Below are positions 1,500 through 36,578 of a stretch of 64,000 bases of DNA, one piece after another; the stretch's first letter is position 1, and each line of letters starts with the position of its first letter. This stretch comes from Perkinsus olseni (lineage: Eukaryota > Perkinsozoa > Perkinsida > Perkinsidae). The stretch spans positions 1 through 64,000 of the forward strand of contig JABANP010000258.1 in assembly GCA_013115135.1 (NCBI GenBank), in the 5' to 3' direction. The position numbers and the translations under genes were made by a program. A model generated the notes under the pieces. It did no database searches and was not told the DNA's origin. It saw only the letters and a list, made by a program, of their open reading frames with translations.

Positions 1500-4400
1500 C
1501 CAGCCCCTCTATTAAGGTTAGAGTCTGCTGTGATAGTGGTAGCCAGCTTAACCTTATTACCTCTGGATTCGTTGAACATCATGGATTGCTCACTCGAAGT
1601 ATTAGACCTACTTCTTTCTCTGGTATTGGCGGTGAGGTTCACAAGTTCACGCGAACTGCCGAGGTATTGGTTACGCTGGGCAATGGTTTCTATGTAGTGA
1701 AATGCGGTGTTGTCCCGAAGCTCCCTTCTCAGAGTGATTTACTCTTGAATCATGAAACTGCGAAGCAGCTTTCGACGGTGCCACCTGAGGGGTGCCGTGG
1801 ATTGGGATAAACTAGATGAGGTCATAGAGGGTACGCTGTCGGCTGAATGGACAAGGGTCCCTTCGGCTGAAGGCTTTCTGATGAGGTTGCGTAAGCTGGA
1901 TGATAAGGAGGCTCGTGATCATCCAGACCAGAAGTACTGCTGTGAGATGGCTGTTGATTCATCCTGTGCCCCTGGTGTTGCTTTTACCGATGACAAGACT
2001 GCTTCTCCTTCAGTCTATGATTATGGTTATGATATATATCGGAAATTGCCTGAAGTTCAGCGTCAACAATATGACCAAGCTGTTAGTCAGTTCTGTGAAG
2101 ACGGTCACTGGGAGGAGGTTGATGAGAGTGAGGTTCGGAAGGAACCTGGCATTCCCACTGTTATCTGCTTTCCAGTTACTTCTAGTACTTCATCTACAGT
2201 TGAAGGAGATGTCTATGAGAAGACGTCAAGCTTCAAGACGAGACCTGTCATAGATGCAGTGCAACTCAATAAGAAGTTCACTAATACTGGCAGTTATAGT
2301 GCTTCCTATGGCGGTAGGACTACTACTGATTTACTGACGGGTTTGCGGGTGAATTTCTGTGGTCCTGATAGGCTGTCTTCAACCAGAAACGATGGTCCGA
2401 GTGATTCTACTCTGAAGCTCGGTACTGCTAATCGGGTACTGATATCCATGGATATCCATCGAGCCTTTTATAGGTTTCGACTGGCTACTATTGGCTCTGA
2501 CAATGACGAGACCAATAAATCCAGATCTTGTGATGGCATGGACTTACCCTTTATCTTTATATTATGTAACCGGCGTTTCTATAAATGCCGCCGTTTGGCG
2601 TTCGGTCTTTTTGTGCGGCCCTGCCATTCTAGAAAATGGAGTGGCGTGGCTGCGTCGAGTCTTTGGAGCGTATGCGCCTGAGCTGGCTCAGGCATATACT
2701 GCTGTTTTTTTATGACGATATTCAGATATGTTCGTCGGTTAACGAAGCGGCTAAGATCATCCCCATTCTAAGTGCGATTGGTAATCGCATAGGTCTTATG
2801 TTGCCACTGGAGAAAACTCGAGTATTATCAGATTCTGCTGATGAGATTGCTCGAGTAAAATGCTCTCAGAGTGGGAACTATGCCTGGGGGTTCTGCTTCG
2901 TGTTCACTGTGGTGCCCTTCAGATGCATTGCATTTGCAAATCACCGGAGAAGCGGCGGTTTGTGAGTGACTTTGCTATCAAGGATCCGCTCACGAGGAGT
3001 CAGCTAGCGGCTTTCATTGGCATACTGCAAGCTTCTAACCCTCTATATGTGCATCCGGTAAGAAGCTGTCTATGCTCTCTGCTAGCAAGATATGCCTCTA
3101 AGGTGGAACCCATCGGCAAATGGAAGGTCCCTCTGCAGTTTAAGGCTGCCGAGGTGAAGCTTATGAATCGTATCGTCGGCTGCTTGCAACAAGATAGTGA
3201 GGCATCGTCGGATTGTGTACACTCTTCCATTGGTGAGTTAGAGCACACTCTCGTTGTGGCCAGTGATGCTAGTCTCGAAGGTTACGGCTATGTCATTACC
3301 ACCTTGAAAGGGATCAAGCTCAGGGCAGTTGCCATGCCCTGGAACCCTAGGATTCATGGTAGTGCTTGGCACGTGAATCGGCGAGAACTATTTGCTTGCT
3401 ATGTAGCCCTGGTTGCTGCCGACGCTGTTGTACGATCCGATATATATAAAAGGATCAAAAAGGTGGTATGCTTGTTAGACTCTTCTTCTTGTCTCGCCTG
3501 GCTTAAGCATGGTTGTCAGGGTGTTAAGGGCATGGAGCGCTTAGCAGTGAGGAGGCTGGTAGCGACGGTCCGGGACATCCTCTTAGACTGGCAAGATACT
3601 CTGAAGATTGATGTGAGTCTCAATCATATCGCGGGTGTTGAAAATGTTGTGGCTGATGGTTATTCTCGAACCCTATCATCTTTGGGATTGAATAATCTGA
3701 TTTCAGCTGTGGATGGTGACGACTCCGAGTCCTTTGAAGTCCTGGCAACTACTGCTTCGGATGAGCCCAGTTCCTTACTCCCTAGCACTGGGCTGGGGGG
3801 GCGAATTCCTACAGCGGGTTACTGCTCAATCAAGAGCTCTAATCGGTAAGGATCGAACTTCTTGGAACGGCGTTGAGATCCTTAGCTTGTTGCACACTGG
3901 TGTGCCTAGGTCTCTCCTTAATCGCTTCGAAGTTGTTCAGAAGGATGACTGCGAGTACGTGCTGGTCAAGCTGAAGATTGGCTGGAGGGTGTATGTGCCG
4001 GCTGACATCGGCGAATACGAACTCCGGGATCGCCTACTTCAACTTGCGCATGATGCTGTAGGTCATCTGGTGCCGCTTCAAATGAAGAATCGTCTGAGCA
4101 GATGGGTGTATTGGCCTGGGATGCTGTCGGATTGTGAAGCATTTACCAGGCACTGCCTTGGTTGCGACAGAGAGCGCGCCAGGCATACGCCAGGTAGTGG
4201 CTACCGGGGAGTCGGTTGCTACAAGGCGTTTTTGAAGTGTTATACATTGATTTTTGCAGGGCCTGTGAGTGGTTGGACTTATACTGATCCGAGCTCTGGC
4301 ACTGTTCTCCACGGTTGCTCGGTCCTACTAATGGTCGATGGCTGCAGTAATTATACCGAATTGGCTGTGGCGTCGGACCAGACTGTTCCTACGGTAGTGC

Positions 4401-4771
4401 GTTTACTGCTCGATCGGTGGGTACTCCGGTATGGAGTACCTCTGATTGTTAGGTCAGATAGAGGCCACTCTTTCTGCAGCAAAGTGCTGAGGCTCCTGTA
4501 CGCGAAGCTTCAGATCAGCTTCGTACCTTCCAGTGGCATTACCCCTCAGAGTCAAGGGCAAATCGAAGTCATTGTAAGGGCGCTCAAGCGTCATTTGGAG
4601 CGCTTGTTGACTTCCGACCTGTCAGTTATTCCTCTGGTGCAACGAGTTATTAATACTACGATTCGGTATGTTACGAGTGGGAGTGAAACGGTATTCACTC
4701 CGGAGTTGATGCTGTACGGTGAATCTACTAAAGGGAGCCTTGAGGTGATGCTGGATACTGATACTTTTTAG
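1500..4771 (+). pseudogene. retrotransposon pol polyprotein (PR-RT-RNase H-INT)
   Basis: The protease starts near 1520 with a CCDSGSQLNLIT motif (DSG in place of DTG). The reverse transcriptase spans about 2220-2870, with TRPVIDAVQLNKKF, the first catalytic Asp in LISMDIHRAFYRFRL, and the YDD box in FFYDDIQICSS near 2712. RNase H follows at about 3250-3690, with Asp in VASDASLEGYGY, Glu in NRRELFACYVAL, Asp in CLLDSSS and Asp in VADGYSR. Integrase runs from about 4050, with an HHCC zinc site (HDAVGH and CLGC) and the DDE core: Asp in MVDGCSNYTE, Asp in RSDRGHSF, Glu in SQGQIEVIVRAL. The frame changes near 2640-2720, 2860-2960 and 3796, so no single open frame encodes it. The motifs themselves are intact. 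Confidence 0.9.
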
Positions 4772-26946: not shown

Positions 26947-28483
26947 TCACGAACTCGATGACGCACTGGACCCCGAGACCATCTCAACGTATCTTCTCGC
27001 CAGAAGTCTTTTGATCAGGGCTTTCCAAGCGAGCTTGGCTAAGTGTTCCTCCTTTGCACGCTCAGCGGTTTTCCTGCTATAACTCTCTTCCTCCATAGCA
27101 TTCCTCAGTGCGCTGGCATCAGATATCGCGACAACCTGAAAAAAGAGATGATCGCTCGCGAGAAGTGAGAAGACGCTTAAAGAGAGCTGCGGAATGAAGA
27201 CTGTTCACACGGCCCTCACCGATAGTACCACTCCGCCGATCTGAGGCCTCTGCGCCATCCAGCCAACATGAGCCGGTGCCCAATGCTCAATCCCTAGTTC
27301 CTTGCACTTCCGAATAAGCCTCCGCAAGTTATCGCCTTCAACATATTCTGCGCCCTCGGGAGGTTCTCGGCCGTCTGTCAGATCAACAAACCCGAATCTG
27401 TTCACTGGAATTTCACCGTCAACTCCAACAGATTTCTGCGGAGCTTCGACGGTTTGATCCTCCGAGTACAACCTAACGGGTTTCCCCTTGATGCTGAGAA
27501 CTCGCCGGCACTCGCACGACTCTGATTTCAGGATCAATCCTCGCCGCTCCCACTGCGACTCTGACCTCAACCGCAGAACGTCTTTCCGTAGGTAGATAGG
27601 GTCTCTGCCGGAGAATACTCCAACGGGCCGGGCAGCGTCGGTGAGACTATCGAACCTCGTTAGCTGAGACGCCAGTATGTACGTGCCGCTGTTCTTAAAC
27701 CCTTCTACACTCTTCGGAAGCTTCCCATCATCCTGTCCAGGTGGTATCCGCAGCCAGCTCAGTACTTTCAGCCGCCTTGAGCTTCCGTATTTGGCGCTTG
27801 CATCGAAGTAATCCCCGACTTTTTTCTTCCCCGCAACGACCCCTAGAGACCGCGACTTGCTGGGCGGAAACCCTACGGCCTGCCCCTTGCCAATCTCGAG
27901 CCATGGCATTGGGTACCCGGTGGCCATGAAGATGGTGGCGTCCTCTTGGAGTACGGCTGAAGTTGCAGCGAGAGCCCCAACGTACGTCGACACGCCCATC
28001 TCGCTAAGGGCGAGCTCATCAGCTATAGACTCTGGCTCCAGGCAAGGGGTCAAGAGTCAAATCGAGCGTAGACGGGTCCGACACCAGCCAGTAAGGGGGC
28101 CAAGGAACCATCATAGGCGCATCATCGCAGGTGACGCCCAGGTCACACATTCGACCGTCGGCTGCTTTTTTTATAGACTCGGATTCAAAGCACAATCGAG
28201 CAAGGTTCTCGAGAGAGTTAAACCATACCATCACTTCCTTCCGAGAGACTGGCCGGCTGATCTTCCTTCTCTTGCGCGCTCGAGGCCGCTCCGCCTCCTC
28301 CACCTTACGTGGTTCTGCCGGGGTGGTAGACGCAGAGGCCATGTCGTCATCAAACGGTGAGGCCCAGTCGACGTCATCGTACTCCGATCCATCGGAGCTG
28401 CAATCCTCAGACGCGGATGAAGGCTCTTTCATAGAGCGCAAAGTTATATCACTGAAATGAACCCTTCCCCGAGCTGCTAGCAT
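26947..28483 (-). CDS. Rad4/XPC-type DNA damage recognition protein
   Basis: Rad4/XPC recognises helix-distorting lesions and starts global nucleotide excision repair. The start at 28483 gives a short acidic, basic-tracted N-terminus, then the end of the transglutaminase-like fold (PWPPYWLVSDP, STYVGALAATS). The beta-hairpin domains follow: VFSGRDPIYLRKDVLRLRSE (BHD1), GEIPVNRFGFVDL (BHD3 start; family GKIPTNEYGNV) and LGIEHWAPAHVGW. An intron (donor gtgagg after 27220, acceptor ttttttcag before 27135) leads to a terminal helix exon with AKLAWKALIKRLLARRY and a stop at 26947-26949. A +1 break lies after CCC near 28047 (minus-strand GAC CCC T TGC). The protein, about 490 residues, is shorter than animal or yeast XPC/Rad4 because most of the N-terminal transglutaminase region is missing. 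Further N-terminal exons were not found. Confidence 0.82.
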
Positions 28484-28860
28484 CCCCGAACTATCACGAG
28501 ACAGCCGCGTGAAGGTTCAAGTTTCATTGACACTACAACAGCAACTCAAGACGAGCCCAGGTTATGATGAATTGGCGTGGGGTTCAGCCCGAAACGGAGA
28601 CTCCAGAAACTTGCTGGTTGCATGCTGATAATTGGTGGGCCTCAGCACGGAAGAATTTGGACTCGCCTGTCGATCTTCCGATTGGAAGCATGACTATATC
28701 GATCCAGTAGGGCAGAGCGAAGGCCTCTGTCACGATGTGGTAAGGGGGCGAGACACTACCGTTGCTCCCATGGAGGGAACCCCTCAAAGTCTCCAGGCAT
28801 CCCACATGATCCCGCGTCGAGGCTATTCGGGCGAACGAGGATGACTGAAAAAGAAGGAAG

Positions 28861-30141
28861 TCAATAAAATGCCCAGCCCGGAGAACCCACCGAAGCTTGG
28901 AGATCTGCTATGCCGACGCCATTGAGTACTCGACGGACAGCTCTGAGCTCCTCCAAAGTAGGGTCCGATATCGGCCACATCCCGAGCATGCCGGTGATTA
29001 TTTGGTACTTGCACGCCTCGCTCAGACCGTCGGTGAAGGCTCTCCTCGCCAACACCACCACAGCCGCGCGGAACAGCTGAGCAGACCTCGATAGAGCACC
29101 CGACAGCATCAGCATTGTGAGTGCTGGGACAGATATGTTAATTCGTGCATGCAGCCAGTGAGACGAGGAGGTCAGCGGAAGGAGCTCGAGCTTGGCAGCT
29201 GCGAGATAGACCTTGGCGATGTTGTCAGGTTCCTTGCCGTCCTTCAGGGTCTCCGACAACAGGCGGGACATCACCAGCCGAACCTTGTCGTCAGCCGGGT
29301 GCAATAGCGCTTTGGCAATGGAATTCGCAATTAAAGCTGCCCAGTCGGGACGGATGCGCCCCGTCGATCCTCCGGAGGAGAGCAAAGTGGAGACTGTGCC
29401 AGTCAAGCTAGGCATTATGGGCGATAGTCCCGGGGATTCTATGGAGCCTTTCGACCGCACAAATGCTGCCATAATCATGGCCAAGTCCCTCAGAGAGAGG
29501 TGGCTGAGATACACGTCGCGCGCCACGAAATTGCAGACCTCTTCAAACGCTCGTTGCCACGTTCTCTTATCGCTGTTGGAACCGAAAACCTCGAGCAAAT
29601 TATACATCTCGCCGGGCTTCAAGTTGGAAAGAATATCTCCAACACCGTCGGTTTCGGCTAAGCAGCCGGCAGCAAAATCGACGTACTTCTCCACGGCCCT
29701 ACGATGGAGCTTTCCCTTCGCTACCCAGAGGGACTGCGTGAGTACCGGAGGGAACTGACCGTATACAGAGGGACCCTGGTCGATCTGCCAGCTCAGCAAC
29801 TCCTCCAAAAATGCATCAGAGTAGACCCCGAAGGATACTACCGCCCCAGACATGTCCAATGCACTGAGGTCGAGATGCCGACGGTCCCGGAGGAGGTCGA
29901 AAGCTGCCTCCATGGTAGGCCTCGGTATCGCTTTCTTCTGAGCTGTAGTGAGCCCCGTAAAACACTTGAGGATATCTCTAGCTGGCCGGCTTCTCGCGCT
30001 CTCACTTCTGACTAACCGGTCCAATTTGGTAGCACCTAGTGATCCGCCAACGGCCGTGGCGAACAGCCTCCGAGCAGGAGAGCAGGACTGTTGCATTCCC
30101 GGAAGGAGGGACTTTGAAAGGGAGTCGACCGATGAAGCCAC
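28861..30141 (-). CDS. uncharacterised all-helical protein, 426 residues
   Basis: A single uninterrupted frame of 426 codons on the same strand as its neighbours. I recognise no family. The N-terminus (MASSVDSLSKSLLPGMQQ, then SPARRLFATAVGG) is Ser/Arg-rich without acidic residues and looks like a mitochondrial presequence. The rest is alpha-helical with repeated Leu/Ala patterns such as ILKCFTGLTTAQ, LLEVFGSNSD, DLAMIMAAFVRS and ALTMLMLSGAL, the style of helical-repeat organelle RNA-binding proteins (OPR/RAP-like). That resemblance is only of style. Codon use resembles adjacent conserved genes, and the intact length supports a real gene. The gene at 36579-39254 has a similar character. Confidence 0.7.
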   Translation of the reverse strand: MASSVDSLSKSLLPGMQQSCSPARRLFATAVGGSLGATKLDRLVRSESARSRPARDILKCFTGLTTAQKKAIPRPTMEAAFDLLRDRRHLDLSALDMSGAVVSFGVYSDAFLEELLSWQIDQGPSVYGQFPPVLTQSLWVAKGKLHRRAVEKYVDFAAGCLAETDGVGDILSNLKPGEMYNLLEVFGSNSDKRTWQRAFEEVCNFVARDVYLSHLSLRDLAMIMAAFVRSKGSIESPGLSPIMPSLTGTVSTLLSSGGSTGRIRPDWAALIANSIAKALLHPADDKVRLVMSRLLSETLKDGKEPDNIAKVYLAAAKLELLPLTSSSHWLHARINISVPALTMLMLSGALSRSAQLFRAAVVVLARRAFTDGLSEACKYQIITGMLGMWPISDPTLEELRAVRRVLNGVGIADLQASVGSPGWAFY

Positions 30142-30377
30142 AAAAGCAAGATAGACACTCGAGCAGCCCTACTGAACTCAACACGGCTAAGTAGGAGTCG
30201 ATCACATTGGTTCAAAAGTCACGACCTATGCACCGGAAGCTCCCTCATAAGCGGGCATTGGTCCAGTGCTTAGTCTCTAGTATTTCGAGCAAGTTTTACA
30301 CGAAGAGCGTTCGGCGTAACTTTCAAACTCATAATATAAACCATTGAGGAACGGCGAGATGATGTAAGAGAGCAAGT

Positions 30378-31350
30378 CTACGGTCTAGTCTCGGAGCCGG
30401 CAACAAACGGGTTGCCCTTTACTTCATCCGTCCCTTGCTCCCATGGCTGCTTCTTTCCCGACCCAAATGCCGGTGACTCAGGGCGCCTGGGAAGTGGCGG
30501 CGTGTACGACACTTGACCGTTTCGACTTGGAACAGGACTCTCCGATCGGCCCGCCGGTAGCCGAGGCTCCCCAACTGAATGAGAAAGCCGTATCACTCAA
30601 ACGATATCGGCGCGATTCACCCACTACCTGCATCACGGGCAGCGGCTGGTTGTTGCCTTGCAGAGCCGTCCTCCAAGGCCTCCTCATTCACGAGGGGTCT
30701 CTGCATAGACGCAGGACCGGCATGGCGATACTCTTCCTCACTGGTGTGGTTATTATTGCGGAGATGGTGCATGTTGGTACCGGTAAAGAAGCCAAGTGAT
30801 TGGATCAAGTAGAGGACAGCAATGACGAAGCCGAGCTGAGACAGAGAGAGACTGGCGAGAGGAAAAGGACGGAGAGACACTTACTATGCCGAGCCACATT
30901 GCTATGGACTCGAAGGTCGCCGAGTACCTATGCCCTCCGATGATATACCCACCAATGATCACATACCTGAGGATACGACGAAAAGTACCGCCGCGGCCCC
31001 ACCACACGCCGAGCACTTACAGGCAAAGTCTGACGCAGTCGTGCTTGAACTGTTGCCACGCTGTCAGCCCCTCACGGTTCTTGAATGTACGCAGGGTCCT
31101 GAGGGAGGAAGAGCCATGCAACCTCAACGCCCCTGGGGTAGACCAAGGACTCACTCGTAGGTGCTGTAGGCTCCCAAGGCCAGTAGTAGCATCCCCTCAC
31201 AGACGTTGTGTATCTTCACTAGGATGTCAGCATCCTTAGGGGTCGTCTCCTTCCCCGTCTTCGGGTATACTAGGTAAATGCCGAGGACGGTGACGCCCCT
31301 ATCCAGAAGACAACTGCGAGGACACGGGACGTCAGGCTGAGCTTAGCCAT
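30378..31350 (-). CDS. small multi-pass membrane protein, uncharacterised
   Basis: Exons on the minus strand join plausibly. The start Met at 31350 (MAKLSLTSRVLAVVF) leads into a segment with VTVLGIYLVYPKTG and CEGMLLLALGAYSTYE (about 31310-31155; reaching this frame from the Met needs one frame step). Then come about 31098-31018 (LRTFKNREGLTAWQQFKHD) closed by gtaagt, about 30930-30888 (YSATFESIAMWLGI) closed by gtaagt, and an exon from about 30850 with QLGFVIAVLYLIQSLGFF. The chain gives roughly four membrane helices and a hydrophilic tail. Whether the last exon stops at 30617 or is spliced on to 30378-30596 (Pro-rich, GSGKKQPWEQG) is undecided. No family is recognised; the layout recalls small tetraspan endomembrane proteins. 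Confidence 0.55.
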
Positions 31351-31598
31351 TGCCCCCTCTCTTGAAGACTCGTGCGTTGATGGCATGTTAGTATTGGAAA
31401 TCACTACATGATCGGTTGAGTGCGGAGACCCCCCTCTACTAGTGGACTCAACTGACGCAAGACCCGGGCGGACGCGGGAGAATCACGCTCGATCAAACAA
31501 TGAAGATTGGTTCGCACGAGTAAATTTTCCACTGAGCAGCATAAATGGTTACATAAAAATGATCACATTCTCTGGGGTGTGTTCGCCGGGCGACGGAG

Positions 31599-34500
31599 TC
31601 ACAGCTCATCGTCGGCGCGGCGGTGCCTGGCATCAACGCTAGCACTCTCCTCTTCCTCCTCGAGTACCCCGATGGGTTCGAAGCCCATGTCTCCCACGAG
31701 GCTGGCAGTGTGGACCTGCTTGAACGTCTCAGTGGCGTCCTTGCCGCAGCCCTCCTCGATGGCCGACGATCCTCCTGGATGCTCACTAGAGTAGTCGCTA
31801 AAGTCGTACACCGAACCGTACAGCGCGATCCAGCAGTTGCTCGGGGAGTTGTGCTCAGCCAAGCTCTACCGAGCCGACACTCTTCCTCGTAGGCGCACGC
31901 TGCTCAGGCTGCCGAGGCTGGTCAACATCACTGTGACCCTCAACAGGCAATCGGTCGCCAATCCTCTTCCCAAAAACGGCACACTCAAGCAAGGAGTTGC
32001 CACCGAGTCGGTTCCGTCCATGAACGCCGCCAGCGACCTCCCCGGCAGCCCAAAGGCCATCGATCACATTACTCGCAGTATCGAGTACGTGCCCATCTGT
32101 ATCGATGCTGATGCCGCCCATGGTGTAGTGGATCACTGGTGTGACTTTTCCGACGAAGTAGCGACCATTGGAGGATGCCGGCACAGACCCCTTCCAACCA
32201 TCGCCGCCGACGAACTTCACTGCGCCACGAAAATCAACTTCCTGCAGTAGACCTCGAGAGCTGTACATCGTGATGTGCCTCTTGGCCGGGCCATTGATCG
32301 CGTCATACGGCAGGAGGATGCTGAAGGCTCTCGATGGGTCACCCGTCTCATCCGCCCTCTCTAGCATCTTGGCCGTGACGTATTTCCGTGTGCCGAGCTC
32401 GTCACAGAAGCGCTGACCATTTTGGTCTAGCAACACTCCGCCGACGCCCCTGAGGATCTCCGCAGCAAGGACTTTAGTACGTGCACCAGGGTCCTTGGGG
32501 TCGATGAATCCAGTGGGGTGAAGTTGAACCTGGTGCATGTCCCGCAGACCAGCATCGGCATCACGGACCGCTATTTTGATGCCATCACCAGTAGTATGGG
32601 GTCCGAGAGTAGTGGGGAAGTCCAGCAAATCAGGCCTGTACTCGGCCATCAGAGAGCCGCTCGACACATCAAAACCAAAGCCACCTGTAGCTAACACCAC
32701 CGAGCTACTCAGAACCTCGATCGCCTCCTCGTTGTTGCCGATGGTATACCGCACACCTTCAACCGTCTTGTGCCTCCGTTGAATGGTCGACTATGAGCCC
32801 AACCAGCTGAGCGTTGTTAACAACATCAATATTGGGCATTTTGTGAGCAACCTTCGAGCCAGCAGCAGTGAGCTCCGCCCCGATGATGCCTCCTTGCGGC
32901 CGTACAGTTCGCGGCCTGGAATGGCCTCCCAGCTTTACCGGAGCGGACAGAGGCACACCGAACCGTTGCTCGACCCAGTGAACGGTTTCACGCGAGTCAT
33001 TCACCAGTACGTTAGCCAGTTCGGGATGCTCACAAGGTCCCAAGACCGCTCTCACAACTGCGTACGGTGTCATTGAGGAAGGAGGCGTAGCACTCCTCTG
33101 TGGCGTCCATCCTCATATTGATGCCACTCGAGGCTTTCGCACTATTGCCGCCTAGATGCTTCGACTTGTCCAGGAGCAGAACCCGGGCACCACGATCAGC
33201 TGAGGCGATTGCCGCACTCATGCCAGCAAGGCCCCCACCCACGACCACAACGTCGTAACTCTGTCGCGTATCCTTGGCTGTGCGCGGCTTCGACTTTAGA
33301 TACCTCAGCGCATGACGACCAAACGCCTCGGCTGGGAAGCTCGCGGCCAAGGAAAGTACAGCTTCATTCTTATCGACTATGGCGTCCACGAGAAGATCCT
33401 CGTCAGCCTGACTGAGAGGGAGCTCAGCGACGTACGACAGGGCTAGCTCCATGACCGACGCTCCCGAGTTGCTGAAGGCTGCCGCTGGGCGCGCCACACG
33501 AGCCACCAGCTTACGCTGATCCTCAAGGTACAGATTTGTGAGCCTGCCCACCTCCATCAGACCGTGGGAGAATTTGTGAACCGTGTTCACTAAGGCAACG
33601 ATCTCATCCCGAGAGAGGGCCGAGGGCAAGAGGGACACATCGGGAGTGAGGAGAATCTTCAAAGTCGTACCCGAGCCCCAGCAGAGTAACCTTCGAATGC
33701 AGCCGGCACCGACGGCAGCGGACGCAGTTGGTCAAGGCGGTGATGTTCTGGAAGACAGACTTGAACTGCTCCGCCAGCTGGCGCCTATCTGCCCGATCCG
33801 CTGGGAAGAGACTATCCTCGTCGAAGCCCTGGAAAACAGGGGAGCAGAGCTTCATCTCGGAGGCGTCCAACAGAGATGCTTCATCAGCTTCTGTGTATTC
33901 TCATCATTCGCCGGTTCGCCAGTCGAGTACTCCCAATTGTACAGGACAGGTTTGGCCTTATGCAGGGCCCTCAAAGTCACCAGATACGCAAAGTTAAGAT
34001 TCTTTAGCCAATCGGGATGCTTGCCGACCGTGGCCATGAACTTCTCATTATTCGGCTTCCACGCAACCTCGCCCTTTCTTGGGTGGATAGTAGTTGGCCA
34101 AGACTTGTATCGTGACCGATTCGTGCATACCCGAGAGAAGCCTCTGCAGGACACGCTCTTCATAGCAGTACCCACCAGTATCCAATCCTCGCCCTATACT
34201 TACACAGTTTTCGGCGTCAATGGCCTCCCATATGTGAGAGCCATTGTAGCCAGTATTATGCTCAGGGTTCAACAGAAGATTCACGTAGTCGAGCTTGTCA
34301 CTCGTCCGAGGAGGGCGACATATGTCGAACCAAAAATCAGGTTTGATGCTGCCATCATCAGCATCATCCAAGTCGTCGTCGAACTCGCCCTCGATCACGC
34401 TTGACTCAGAGTCGGTGATGAAGGGGTTCACCTCGTTGCCACTCGGTTCTATGCTGCAGAGGGAGGCACCACCGCCCGCGGGACTCGACGAAGAGCCAAA

Positions 34501-34860
34501 ACCAAAAGCGGCTGCCGCGCCGCCTGGAGGGGAGGACCCGCAAGTCACTTCGTCCTTGTTTTTATCACCCCAAGTGAAGTCACAGTCCTCGTCCATAGCA
34601 ACTCGGACCAACCGGAAGTAGGTGGTGTTGGCCAGTTCCTCGAGAATAGAGTGTAGCTGCGCGGAGTTAGCTCGCTGTACTGCCTCGACCTCGCACTTCG
34701 TACCGTCAACTTGACCTTTGACCAATGAGACTGGCCGACCCGAAGGGGTATCCAAAACATCAACTCCGAAAACAACACCGACGAGGAGCATCACCACCAT
34801 TGTCATAAGAGACCGTTCGGCGAGGGGTACGCAGGACCCTCTGCCAGACGCTGTTGCCAT
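31599..34860 (-). CDS. ERO1 - fumarate reductase - cytochrome b5 fusion, ER-luminal
   Basis: An intronless locus of about 1,080 codons. It starts with a hydrophobic segment (SLMTMVVMLLVGVVFGVDVL), a likely signal peptide. The ERO1 domain (34800-33500) has KCEVEAVQ, YFRLVRVAM, YVNLLLNPEHNTGYNG, EERVLQRLLSGMHESV, LKNLNFAYLVTLRAL and the CxxCxxC site NCVRCRRCRLHSK. With no stop, one 210-codon frame (33662-33030) carries ERO1 C-terminal helices and then the FAD site YDVVVVGGGLAGMSAA of a soluble fumarate reductase. That domain continues with LHPTGF, HYTMGGI and GRNRLGGNSL (substrate His and Arg). A cytochrome b5 domain follows (NSPSNCWIALYG, EHPGGSS), and the protein ends ADDEL. Six single-base frame breaks occur, near 34072, 33890, 33670, 33040, 32760 and 31858; three follow GGG. 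ERO1 oxidises PDI. Electron transfer from its FAD to fumarate is inferred. Confidence 0.85.
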
Positions 34861-35124
34861 CTTGCCAATCTAATCCAAAATAATGTCCCTGAGTAAATCG
34901 CCCAGACGTGTCACTTCCAGCCGACACAGACCGCGTGTTGGCGGCCCTGCTCCCATCGCAGAAAAGGGAGACAGCACGTTGTGTCCGATCCTCCCCAAAC
35001 GACGGCGACAAAGCACTCATCCCTCAACACAAGAAACTCCACCTAGTGTTTTCACGAAACGGTTGTTGATACTACATCGACTACGGACGGTCTAGTTTGG
35101 TATATAGCGTTTGATCAGTCTCTC

Positions 35125-36438
35125 TTAAGCCTTTCGCACTGTCTCTCGAACGACCTTCACTGCAAGGGGAGCTGCCAAAAACACGCTGGTGGCTATAGCA
35201 ACACCAGTGTTGTCGCCGGGCACCGAGAACTCGAGCGGGATGGTGAAGGCAGCACCACCACGAGTGAAGCGGAACTTCAATATCGCCGAATCGAAGTTGG
35301 GCCACCGCAGCATCAGTGACCACTGGACCAGCGTTGGGAAGGCTCCGTCAAGCTCTTCCCAGTCACTCAAGCTCTCTGCACCATTCAGCTGTTGTGAGCA
35401 CTTCAGCTCAATTCCGGCACCGGCTGCCAGAGACATTGTGGGCCCGCAGGAGACCTCGAAGCCACCACTAAACGGCAGCACCGTCTTGGCCTCGAAGGCG
35501 ATGTTCCCCTCACCCCTTCGATGGAGAAAAGTTGTACTTCATAGTACAGCGGTCCCATGCCTTCATCCTAGCAAGATCCTCGTCGCTGCCGACCTCGGGA
35601 TTCGTCTTCTCAATCTCGAATGCCGCGTGATTGCCATGACCAACAGCCAGAGTGACGCTGCCCGCCCAGTCCTTGAAGAGCTGGAGCCCCCACGTCATCG
35701 CAGCGCCCACGCCACCCACTTGCGTCCAGGACACCGTCTGCCTCAGAGTCGAGTGTTGACCAACTTGTCGAGTAACCACAGCTTCTAACGCTGGTGGCCA
35801 CCATTGACCCGCTACAGTATCAACCATTACTCGGCTTTGCATGTACGGGCTCCATCCAGTCTGCCAAAATATGTCATCTTTCCGACGCCGCCACCATTGG
35901 CTTGAACGTGGCTTGCAGTGACTACTGTGAAGTTGTGTCTTCCCGCGGTTATCCCCATTCCGTGAGTAAAGCTTGTATAAGCCCATTGCGGGACTTCCTG
36001 CCAATCTCTGAATTTCAGGCCGGTGGTCATCTCCCCTTGTAGCTGGAACATCCTCTGCACCTTCATCTCCTCATTGCCACGGACCATCGCTCTCACTCGT
36101 CGCTCTAGGTTGGCCAGTGTCTCGTCCTGCTTCACGACTATACCGTCGGCCAGACTGATGCCATCAAGACCATACTTGTCATAAAAGGACCTCATAGTGG
36201 GGTTGGACAGAACCCGGTAAGCATAGTTGATCCGCCTGAACGCTTCAGGATCTCCTCCTTGCGAAGCTCGCTTGTCGGGATGATGCAGTTTGCTCTGATC
36301 TAAGTAGCCCTGACGAATGGCGTCCGAGTCGCTGTCTCGAGCGACATGGAGTAAGTCATAGAGGTCCATATCCTGTGGGATGGACGACTCCCCCGCGCTG
36401 CCGGTACTGTCCCCATTTGCGTACTGAGAAGGAGGCAT
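35125..36438 (-). CDS. DNAJC11-like J-domain protein
   Basis: DNAJC11 family proteins attach to the mitochondrial outer membrane and interact with MICOS/SAM. The N-terminus has a J domain: DLYDLLHVARDSDSDAIRQG, then HHPDK with the HPD motif and FRRINYAYRVLSNP. A short coiled segment (LANLERRVRAMVRGNEEM) leads into a long beta-rich region (HNFTVVTASHVQANGG, VTLAVGHGNHAAFEIEK) and a C-terminal IPLEFSVPGDN plus a hydrophobic helix AIATSVFLAAPLAV, matching the family's terminal DUF3395-type region. Two frame changes are needed: near 35870 (after GKMTYF) and +1 after GGG in the G-run at 35513-35516. The stop is at 35125. The exact DNAJC11 assignment rests on overall order, and a more general J protein is possible. 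Confidence 0.72.
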
Positions 36439-36578
36439 TGCAGTGGTGAGAACGCTTTAGTAATAGGCTAGTCGGGGGTAGCTTAGATGGTACAAGAGTA
36501 AAAAAACCTGCGAAGTCCACTTGAAGAATGCGACCCGCCGGGATCGAACTCGAGTCCTCCCGGTTGTCGGAAACATGT

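Follow-up and report, generated by a model that had tools for sequence, protein, structure and literature searches.

A fusion of ERO1, fumarate reductase and cytochrome b5 in Perkinsus olseni and other eukaryotes: a candidate thiol:fumarate oxidoreductase

A natural fusion of ERO1 with an Osm1-type fumarate reductase (FRD) and cytochrome b5 (b5) is encoded in a 64,000-nucleotide stretch of the Perkinsus olseni genome (contig JABANP010000258.1, positions 1 to 64,000; hereafter the window). The whole gene lies on the minus strand, from the first in-frame ATG at 34860 to a stop at 31599. ERO1 and FRD are joined by a small four-helix linker, for which the name LK was coined in this analysis. The ERO1-FRD fusion is real, and it is not peculiar to Perkinsus. 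Judging from its conserved residues, the fused protein would act in the secretory pathway as a self-contained thiol:fumarate oxidoreductase, a reading to which we give a probability of roughly 0.74.

The fused gene in Perkinsus olseni

The join lies within a single open frame of 233 codons on the minus strand (33030-33731), which holds the C-terminal helices of ERO1, LK and the FAD site of FRD; the 87 codons from the end of the ERO1 core (LYLE) to the start of FRD are free of stops in the window sequence. The original prediction of one continuous minus-strand frame across the join is therefore borne out, and the frame end that it gave, 33662, is about where the join frame takes over from the frame upstream. 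Pfam matches the join frame both to the last ERO1 helices (PF04137 positions 308-353, E 1.2e-5), with a score for this fragment by itself (25.1 bits) slightly below the 27-bit cut-off, and to the N-terminus of FAD_binding_2 (E 5.2e-14). LK occupies 33267-33470 at the junction and is followed by the dinucleotide-binding start of FRD (VVVVGGGLAG, 33210-33260).

The rest of ERO1 is found upstream, as had been claimed, in three pieces on the same strand between 34860 and 33670 that all exceed the PF04137 cut-off (E 5.9e-26, 3.4e-14 and 1.1e-14; 91.9, 53.2 and 54.9 bits). Part 1 (34048-34860; PF04137 positions 1-182) includes a hydrophobic, signal-peptide-like N-terminal stretch recognized by hydropathy (34765-34809) and shuttle-type cysteines near 34545-34531 and 34461-34447. 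Part 2, the second frame piece (33876-34076), covers PF04137 positions 180-246, and part 3 (33670-33864) includes the CxxCxxC active site (33726-33706), which is in a frame other than the join frame and immediately upstream of the join. Downstream, also on the minus strand, the middle part of FRD is a separate frame piece (32774-33043) that aligns to residues 587-676 of the protein record P0001 with 96.7% identity; the frame piece 32759-33112 gave no Pfam match when scanned alone. The predicted catalytic motifs and HPGG cytochrome b5 follow. The catalytic part (31858-32775; Pfam E 1.5e-46) has counterparts of Osm1 H281, E301, R304, R326, H435 and R477, and the b5 domain (31599-31862; E 8.1e-19, 67.9 bits versus a cut-off of 23.7) has HPGG at 31781-31770, the second histidine at 31715-31701 and a C-terminal DDEL.

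The gene is split over seven frame pieces in the contig, with six changes near 34.08, 33.87, 33.67, 33.04, 32.78 and 31.86 kb, such that the whole gene has no read-through in this contig. However, P0001, which is another P. olseni record of 1072 aa, is an uninterrupted fusion that covers 96% of the query's first 560 residues at 98% identity, and P0003 also reads through the whole fusion. A further record, P0004, shares stretches of 100% identity with the window, omits parts around the frame changes, extends into the next gene and starts at 34806 rather than at the first in-frame ATG; it looks like an automatic model of the window's own sequence. In a whole-genome search (61.5 Mb, 968 contigs), ERO1 matched four times, each time at this locus. 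The original prediction would be weakened by relatives with separate ERO1 and FRD genes at this locus; the comparison was made at the protein level, where P0001 and P. chesapeaki P0002 are both fused, the latter in a model without much of FRD.

A DnaJ-type gene adjoins the fusion upstream (35125-36456, minus). By eye, its frame also seems to change, and its Pfam match is confined to the first frame piece; the apparent frame change suggests assembly errors in the contig.

Distribution and origin

The first 560 residues of a gene-length query (ERO1, LK and the start of FRD) retrieved 85 proteins, most of which carry ERO1, FRD and b5 domains. Two further searches, with an ERO1 alignment and an FRD-b5 alignment and with the best 120 taken from each, brought the combined set to 305 proteins. 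The search for the same domain order in other genomes succeeded, as 116 of the 305 have ERO1 and FRD in one chain and 92 of these also have b5. Classified with our own profiles, the set comprises ERO-LK-FRD-B5 (89), ERO-LK-FRD (24), ERO-FRD-B5 (3), ERO-LK-B5 (1), ERO-LK (21), ERO (76), LK-FRD-B5 (16), LK-FRD (1), FRD-B5 (67), FRD (6) and B5-FRD-B5 (1). All but one of the ERO-LK-FRD proteins stop inside FRD (23 of 24, the exception being P0048).

Eleven carriers of the fusion are named: P. olseni, P. chesapeaki, Guillardia theta, Hanusia phi (fragment), Effrenium voratum, Polarella glacialis, Emiliania huxleyi (fragment), Mesostigma viride (read from the tag Mesvir1), Diplonema papillatum, Aplanochytrium sp. 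PBS07 and Leptocylindrus danicus. Among them are a haptophyte, a diplonemid and a streptophyte alga as well as dinoflagellates, cryptophytes, a labyrinthulomycete (Aplanochytrium) and a diatom (Leptocylindrus). A single transcript over both domains, proposed as a check, is suggested outside the genus: about a dozen fused entries have transcript-type names (P0007, P0014, P0016, P0027, P0043, P0028, P0031, P0037, P0232, P0234, P0260 and perhaps P0065), all from species other than Perkinsus. Scans with two short patterns each gave no relatives in contigs of viruses or prokaryotes. The FRD-b5 proteins without ERO1 that have names are fungal or diatom, apart from a partial model from Baffinella. 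In Nitzschia inconspicua, P0127 is an ERO1-LK protein and P0207 a separate FRD-b5-b5 protein; the two share the listed length of the longest contig and are perhaps a split gene model or two genes on one contig. The claim that no such fusion had been described holds, weakly, within a limited literature search, mostly at the level of titles and abstracts, but one database entry, P0090 from Chrysochromulina tobinii, is already named for both domains ('ero1-like protein precursor fumarate reductase, partial').

A quick tree separates its 111 protist-type ERO1 rows from their human and yeast counterparts with an SH-aLRT support of 98%. The fungi and Osm1 were nested within the fused rows in the first FRD tree, but a tree constrained to place them apart with Fcc3 has a better likelihood (p-AU 0.73). 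Diatom proteins of the FRD-b5-b5 type, which lack ERO1, also nest within the fused rows of the quick FRD tree, which looks like secondary loss of ERO1 or a duplicated FRD. Given the well-supported branches, the fused label must have changed at least 13 times for ERO1 and at least nine times for FRD, which speaks against a simple single origin, although these counts are not decisive either way because the 'solo' labels are partly fragments. A single origin is compatible with the tree test, which does not reject it, and the sharing of the third part, LK, argues for one fusion event followed by losses. A bolder proposal, for which we would offer somewhat less than even odds, is that ERO1-LK-FRD-b5 is ancient and arose once before several supergroups spread. 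In many algae and protists it would be the principal or sole ERO1, a single chain that makes disulfides without oxygen and in which the b5 heme bridges two flavins; in the better-known groups, the oxygen-only ERO1 would be derived or an alternative state.

Long tandem arrays of FRD were also seen. On contig C70 of the same genome, an uninterrupted frame of 2771 aa (about 27081-35396; L017:1582-9897, plus strand) has four tandem FRD and four cytochrome b5 domains, confirmed by Pfam as four FAD_binding_2 and four Cyt-b5, with several C-terminal hydrophobic segments noted by eye. This multi-copy chain is odd in its own right. Long open frames on C70 (36.6-44.4 kb), C67, C745 and C825 hold further such arrays, and some of these also match b5. 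Within the window, long frames at 1749-4771 (plus strand) resemble, by eye, remnants of a retroelement polymerase/integrase.

Conserved sites and the proposed electron route

The thiol-oxidizing side of the fusion has the ERO1 fold. All three cysteines of CxxCxxC are kept in 84 of 85 rows, with a gap in the remaining row, and the FAD-site residues T185, W193, H228 and R279 (P0001 numbering) are invariant in 40 of 40 rows, so that the use of oxygen has probably not been lost. The two shuttle-type cysteines are kept in 72 and 75 of the 85 rows, with gaps in 12 and 8 and other residues in 1 and 2. By a pattern rule, their spacing is 10-44 residues in each of the 61 fused proteins (of 116) where it was measurable; it is 10-47 in those rows of the alignment of 40 that have both positions and 11-57 in 40 unfused relatives. 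Human ERO1-alpha and yeast Ero1p resemble the fusion in fold, CxxCxxC, shuttle-type cysteines and FAD-site residues. In contrast, they are stand-alone proteins whose solved sequences show a C-x4-C shuttle pair; this short spacing, which is not a strictly defining trait, is seen in none of the 61 measured fused proteins.

On the other side, FRD has the expected fold, with Osm1 as the nearest solved structure by both sequence and fold. The six residues listed as critical for Fcc3 and Osm1 in PMC6242907 are kept in 92 of 92 fused proteins and are also present in the window frame. LK spans about 65 residues, and a profile made from the linkers in 76 of the retrieved proteins detects it in 113 of the 116 ERO1-FRD proteins; sequence searches of Pfam and PDB gave no convincing relative. 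Modelled alone and with no alignment, the LK of the window forms four helices (pLDDT 93.6, pTM 0.79). Both heme histidines of b5 are kept in 70 of 85 rows, and the remaining 15 have gaps there. A hydrophobic N-terminal stretch, called by a hydropathy rule rather than a signal-peptide program, occurs in 42 of 53 relatives with a complete start, and the DDEL that ends the window gene resembles a signal for retention in the endoplasmic reticulum (ER). The fusion may be located in the ER.

Electrons would pass from reduced PDI to the shuttle cysteines, to the CxxC and to the FAD of ERO1, then to the FAD of the attached Osm1-type FRD and on to fumarate, instead of or besides oxygen, with succinate leaving. 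A yeast precedent for such a relay exists in vitro: Kim et al. (2018, PMC6242907) report that Osm1 enables Ero1 to use fumarate for thiol oxidation when the mixture is depleted of oxygen, that the two proteins bind weakly (Kd about 150-200 uM) and that docking places Ero1 near the heme-domain site of Fcc3, the distance between the flavins exceeding 20 A in the docked model. The proposed role of the fusion is like that of the yeast pair, in which thiols are oxidised by Ero1 and fumarate is the final acceptor by way of an Osm1-type FRD. Unlike the fusion, the yeast proteins are separate and Osm1 has no heme domain, whereas here one frame crosses the join and one protein, P0001, carries both partners. 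The fusion would therefore make the weak yeast encounter permanent. ERO1 is N-terminal to FRD, in the place of the heme domain in Fcc3, and a heme domain is present besides; hence the full route is proposed as thiol to ERO1 FAD to (b5 heme) to FRD FAD to fumarate, with the order of the last steps being the more conjectural part. The b5 heme could serve as a one-electron relay between the flavins, much as the heme domain feeds the flavin of Fcc3. Shewanella Fcc3 shares the FRD fold, the six catalytic residues and an electron-delivering domain N-terminal to FRD, but it is bacterial and that domain is heme rather than ERO1. Like the fusion, the fungal and diatom proteins have FRD followed by b5, in one or two copies, but those classed as FRD-B5 showed neither ERO1 nor LK. 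The benefit of the fusion would lie in forming disulfides when oxygen is low, in making less peroxide, or in both.

Several observations weigh against this reading. The second flavin site of Osm1 (S78, P162, W295, F297, L298, F362 and Y363) is only partly kept and its pocket largely replaced: S78 and L298 are present in 92 of 92 and Y363 in 91 of 92, but of the 92, at least 88 have another residue in place of W295, at least 91 in place of F297 and 90 in place of F362, and P162 is a gap in all 92 fused rows. Given that W295 is absent from most unfused relatives too, these changes neither prove nor exclude direct flavin transfer. The full-length structure model has a pTM of 0.56 and so does not fix the placing of the domains or the distance between flavins. 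LK has a methionine (33455-33438, minus), shared with P0001-P0003, from which translation of a short LK-FRD-b5 product could begin; that architecture is seen in 16 of the 305 retrieved proteins. Among 69 listed proteins, a C-terminal -DEL is absent except in P0001 and P0003. Fused and unfused rows are intermixed in the quick trees, and many carriers are oxygen-producing algae.

The last point bears on the niche suggested by the original prediction, that of a host-associated or sediment-dwelling protist facing anoxia, which is too narrow: Guillardia, Emiliania, Effrenium, Leptocylindrus and Mesostigma are free-living phototrophs. The thiol-to-fumarate reading itself retains its support in a single polypeptide with both the ERO1 entry and the fumarate-reducing side conserved, and in the yeast precedent. 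Phototrophic carriers, together with an ERO1 FAD site that probably still allows the use of oxygen, would also suit the same route at work in oxygen-rich cells, where it spares hydrogen peroxide or broadens the range of acceptors with no adaptation to anoxia. We consider this unlikely though well worth keeping in mind; the present data do not separate it from an anaerobic role, and the yeast precedent was seen in an oxygen-depleted mixture (PMC6242907).

It is distinctly improbable that ERO1 is only tethered, with b5 the entry for electrons from another donor and FRD given to a separate ER redox task. FRD-b5 proteins without ERO1 are common (67 of 305), such that b5 can pair with FRD independently, but ERO1, LK and FRD are kept in one chain across great distances with the active sites at both ends intact. 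The fold family of FRD includes urocanate reductase and ketosteroid dehydrogenases, and the domain might reduce another unsaturated acid or run in the other direction; conservation of the six critical residues in every one of the 92 proteins and the closeness to Osm1 make this very unlikely. That the gene is a merger of two adjacent genes, or dead, is scarcely credible. The six frame changes, the automatic model that extends into the next gene and the missing part of P0002 would fit such an artefact, but the join itself is inside one frame, P0001 and P0003 read through, and other species have fused frames, some with transcript-type names; the upstream DnaJ-type gene, which by eye also seems frame-shifted, would point to assembly errors.

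The thiol:fumarate reading bears on how eukaryotes make disulfides without oxygen. A widely kept natural fusion of both partners is independent evolutionary evidence that transfer from Ero1 to Osm1 is real and useful, and the question becomes testable with a single purified protein. The presence of the same fusion in distantly related algae and protists suggests that cells with it may fold secreted proteins without oxygen. If true, oxygen-independent oxidative folding would take place in major plankton groups.
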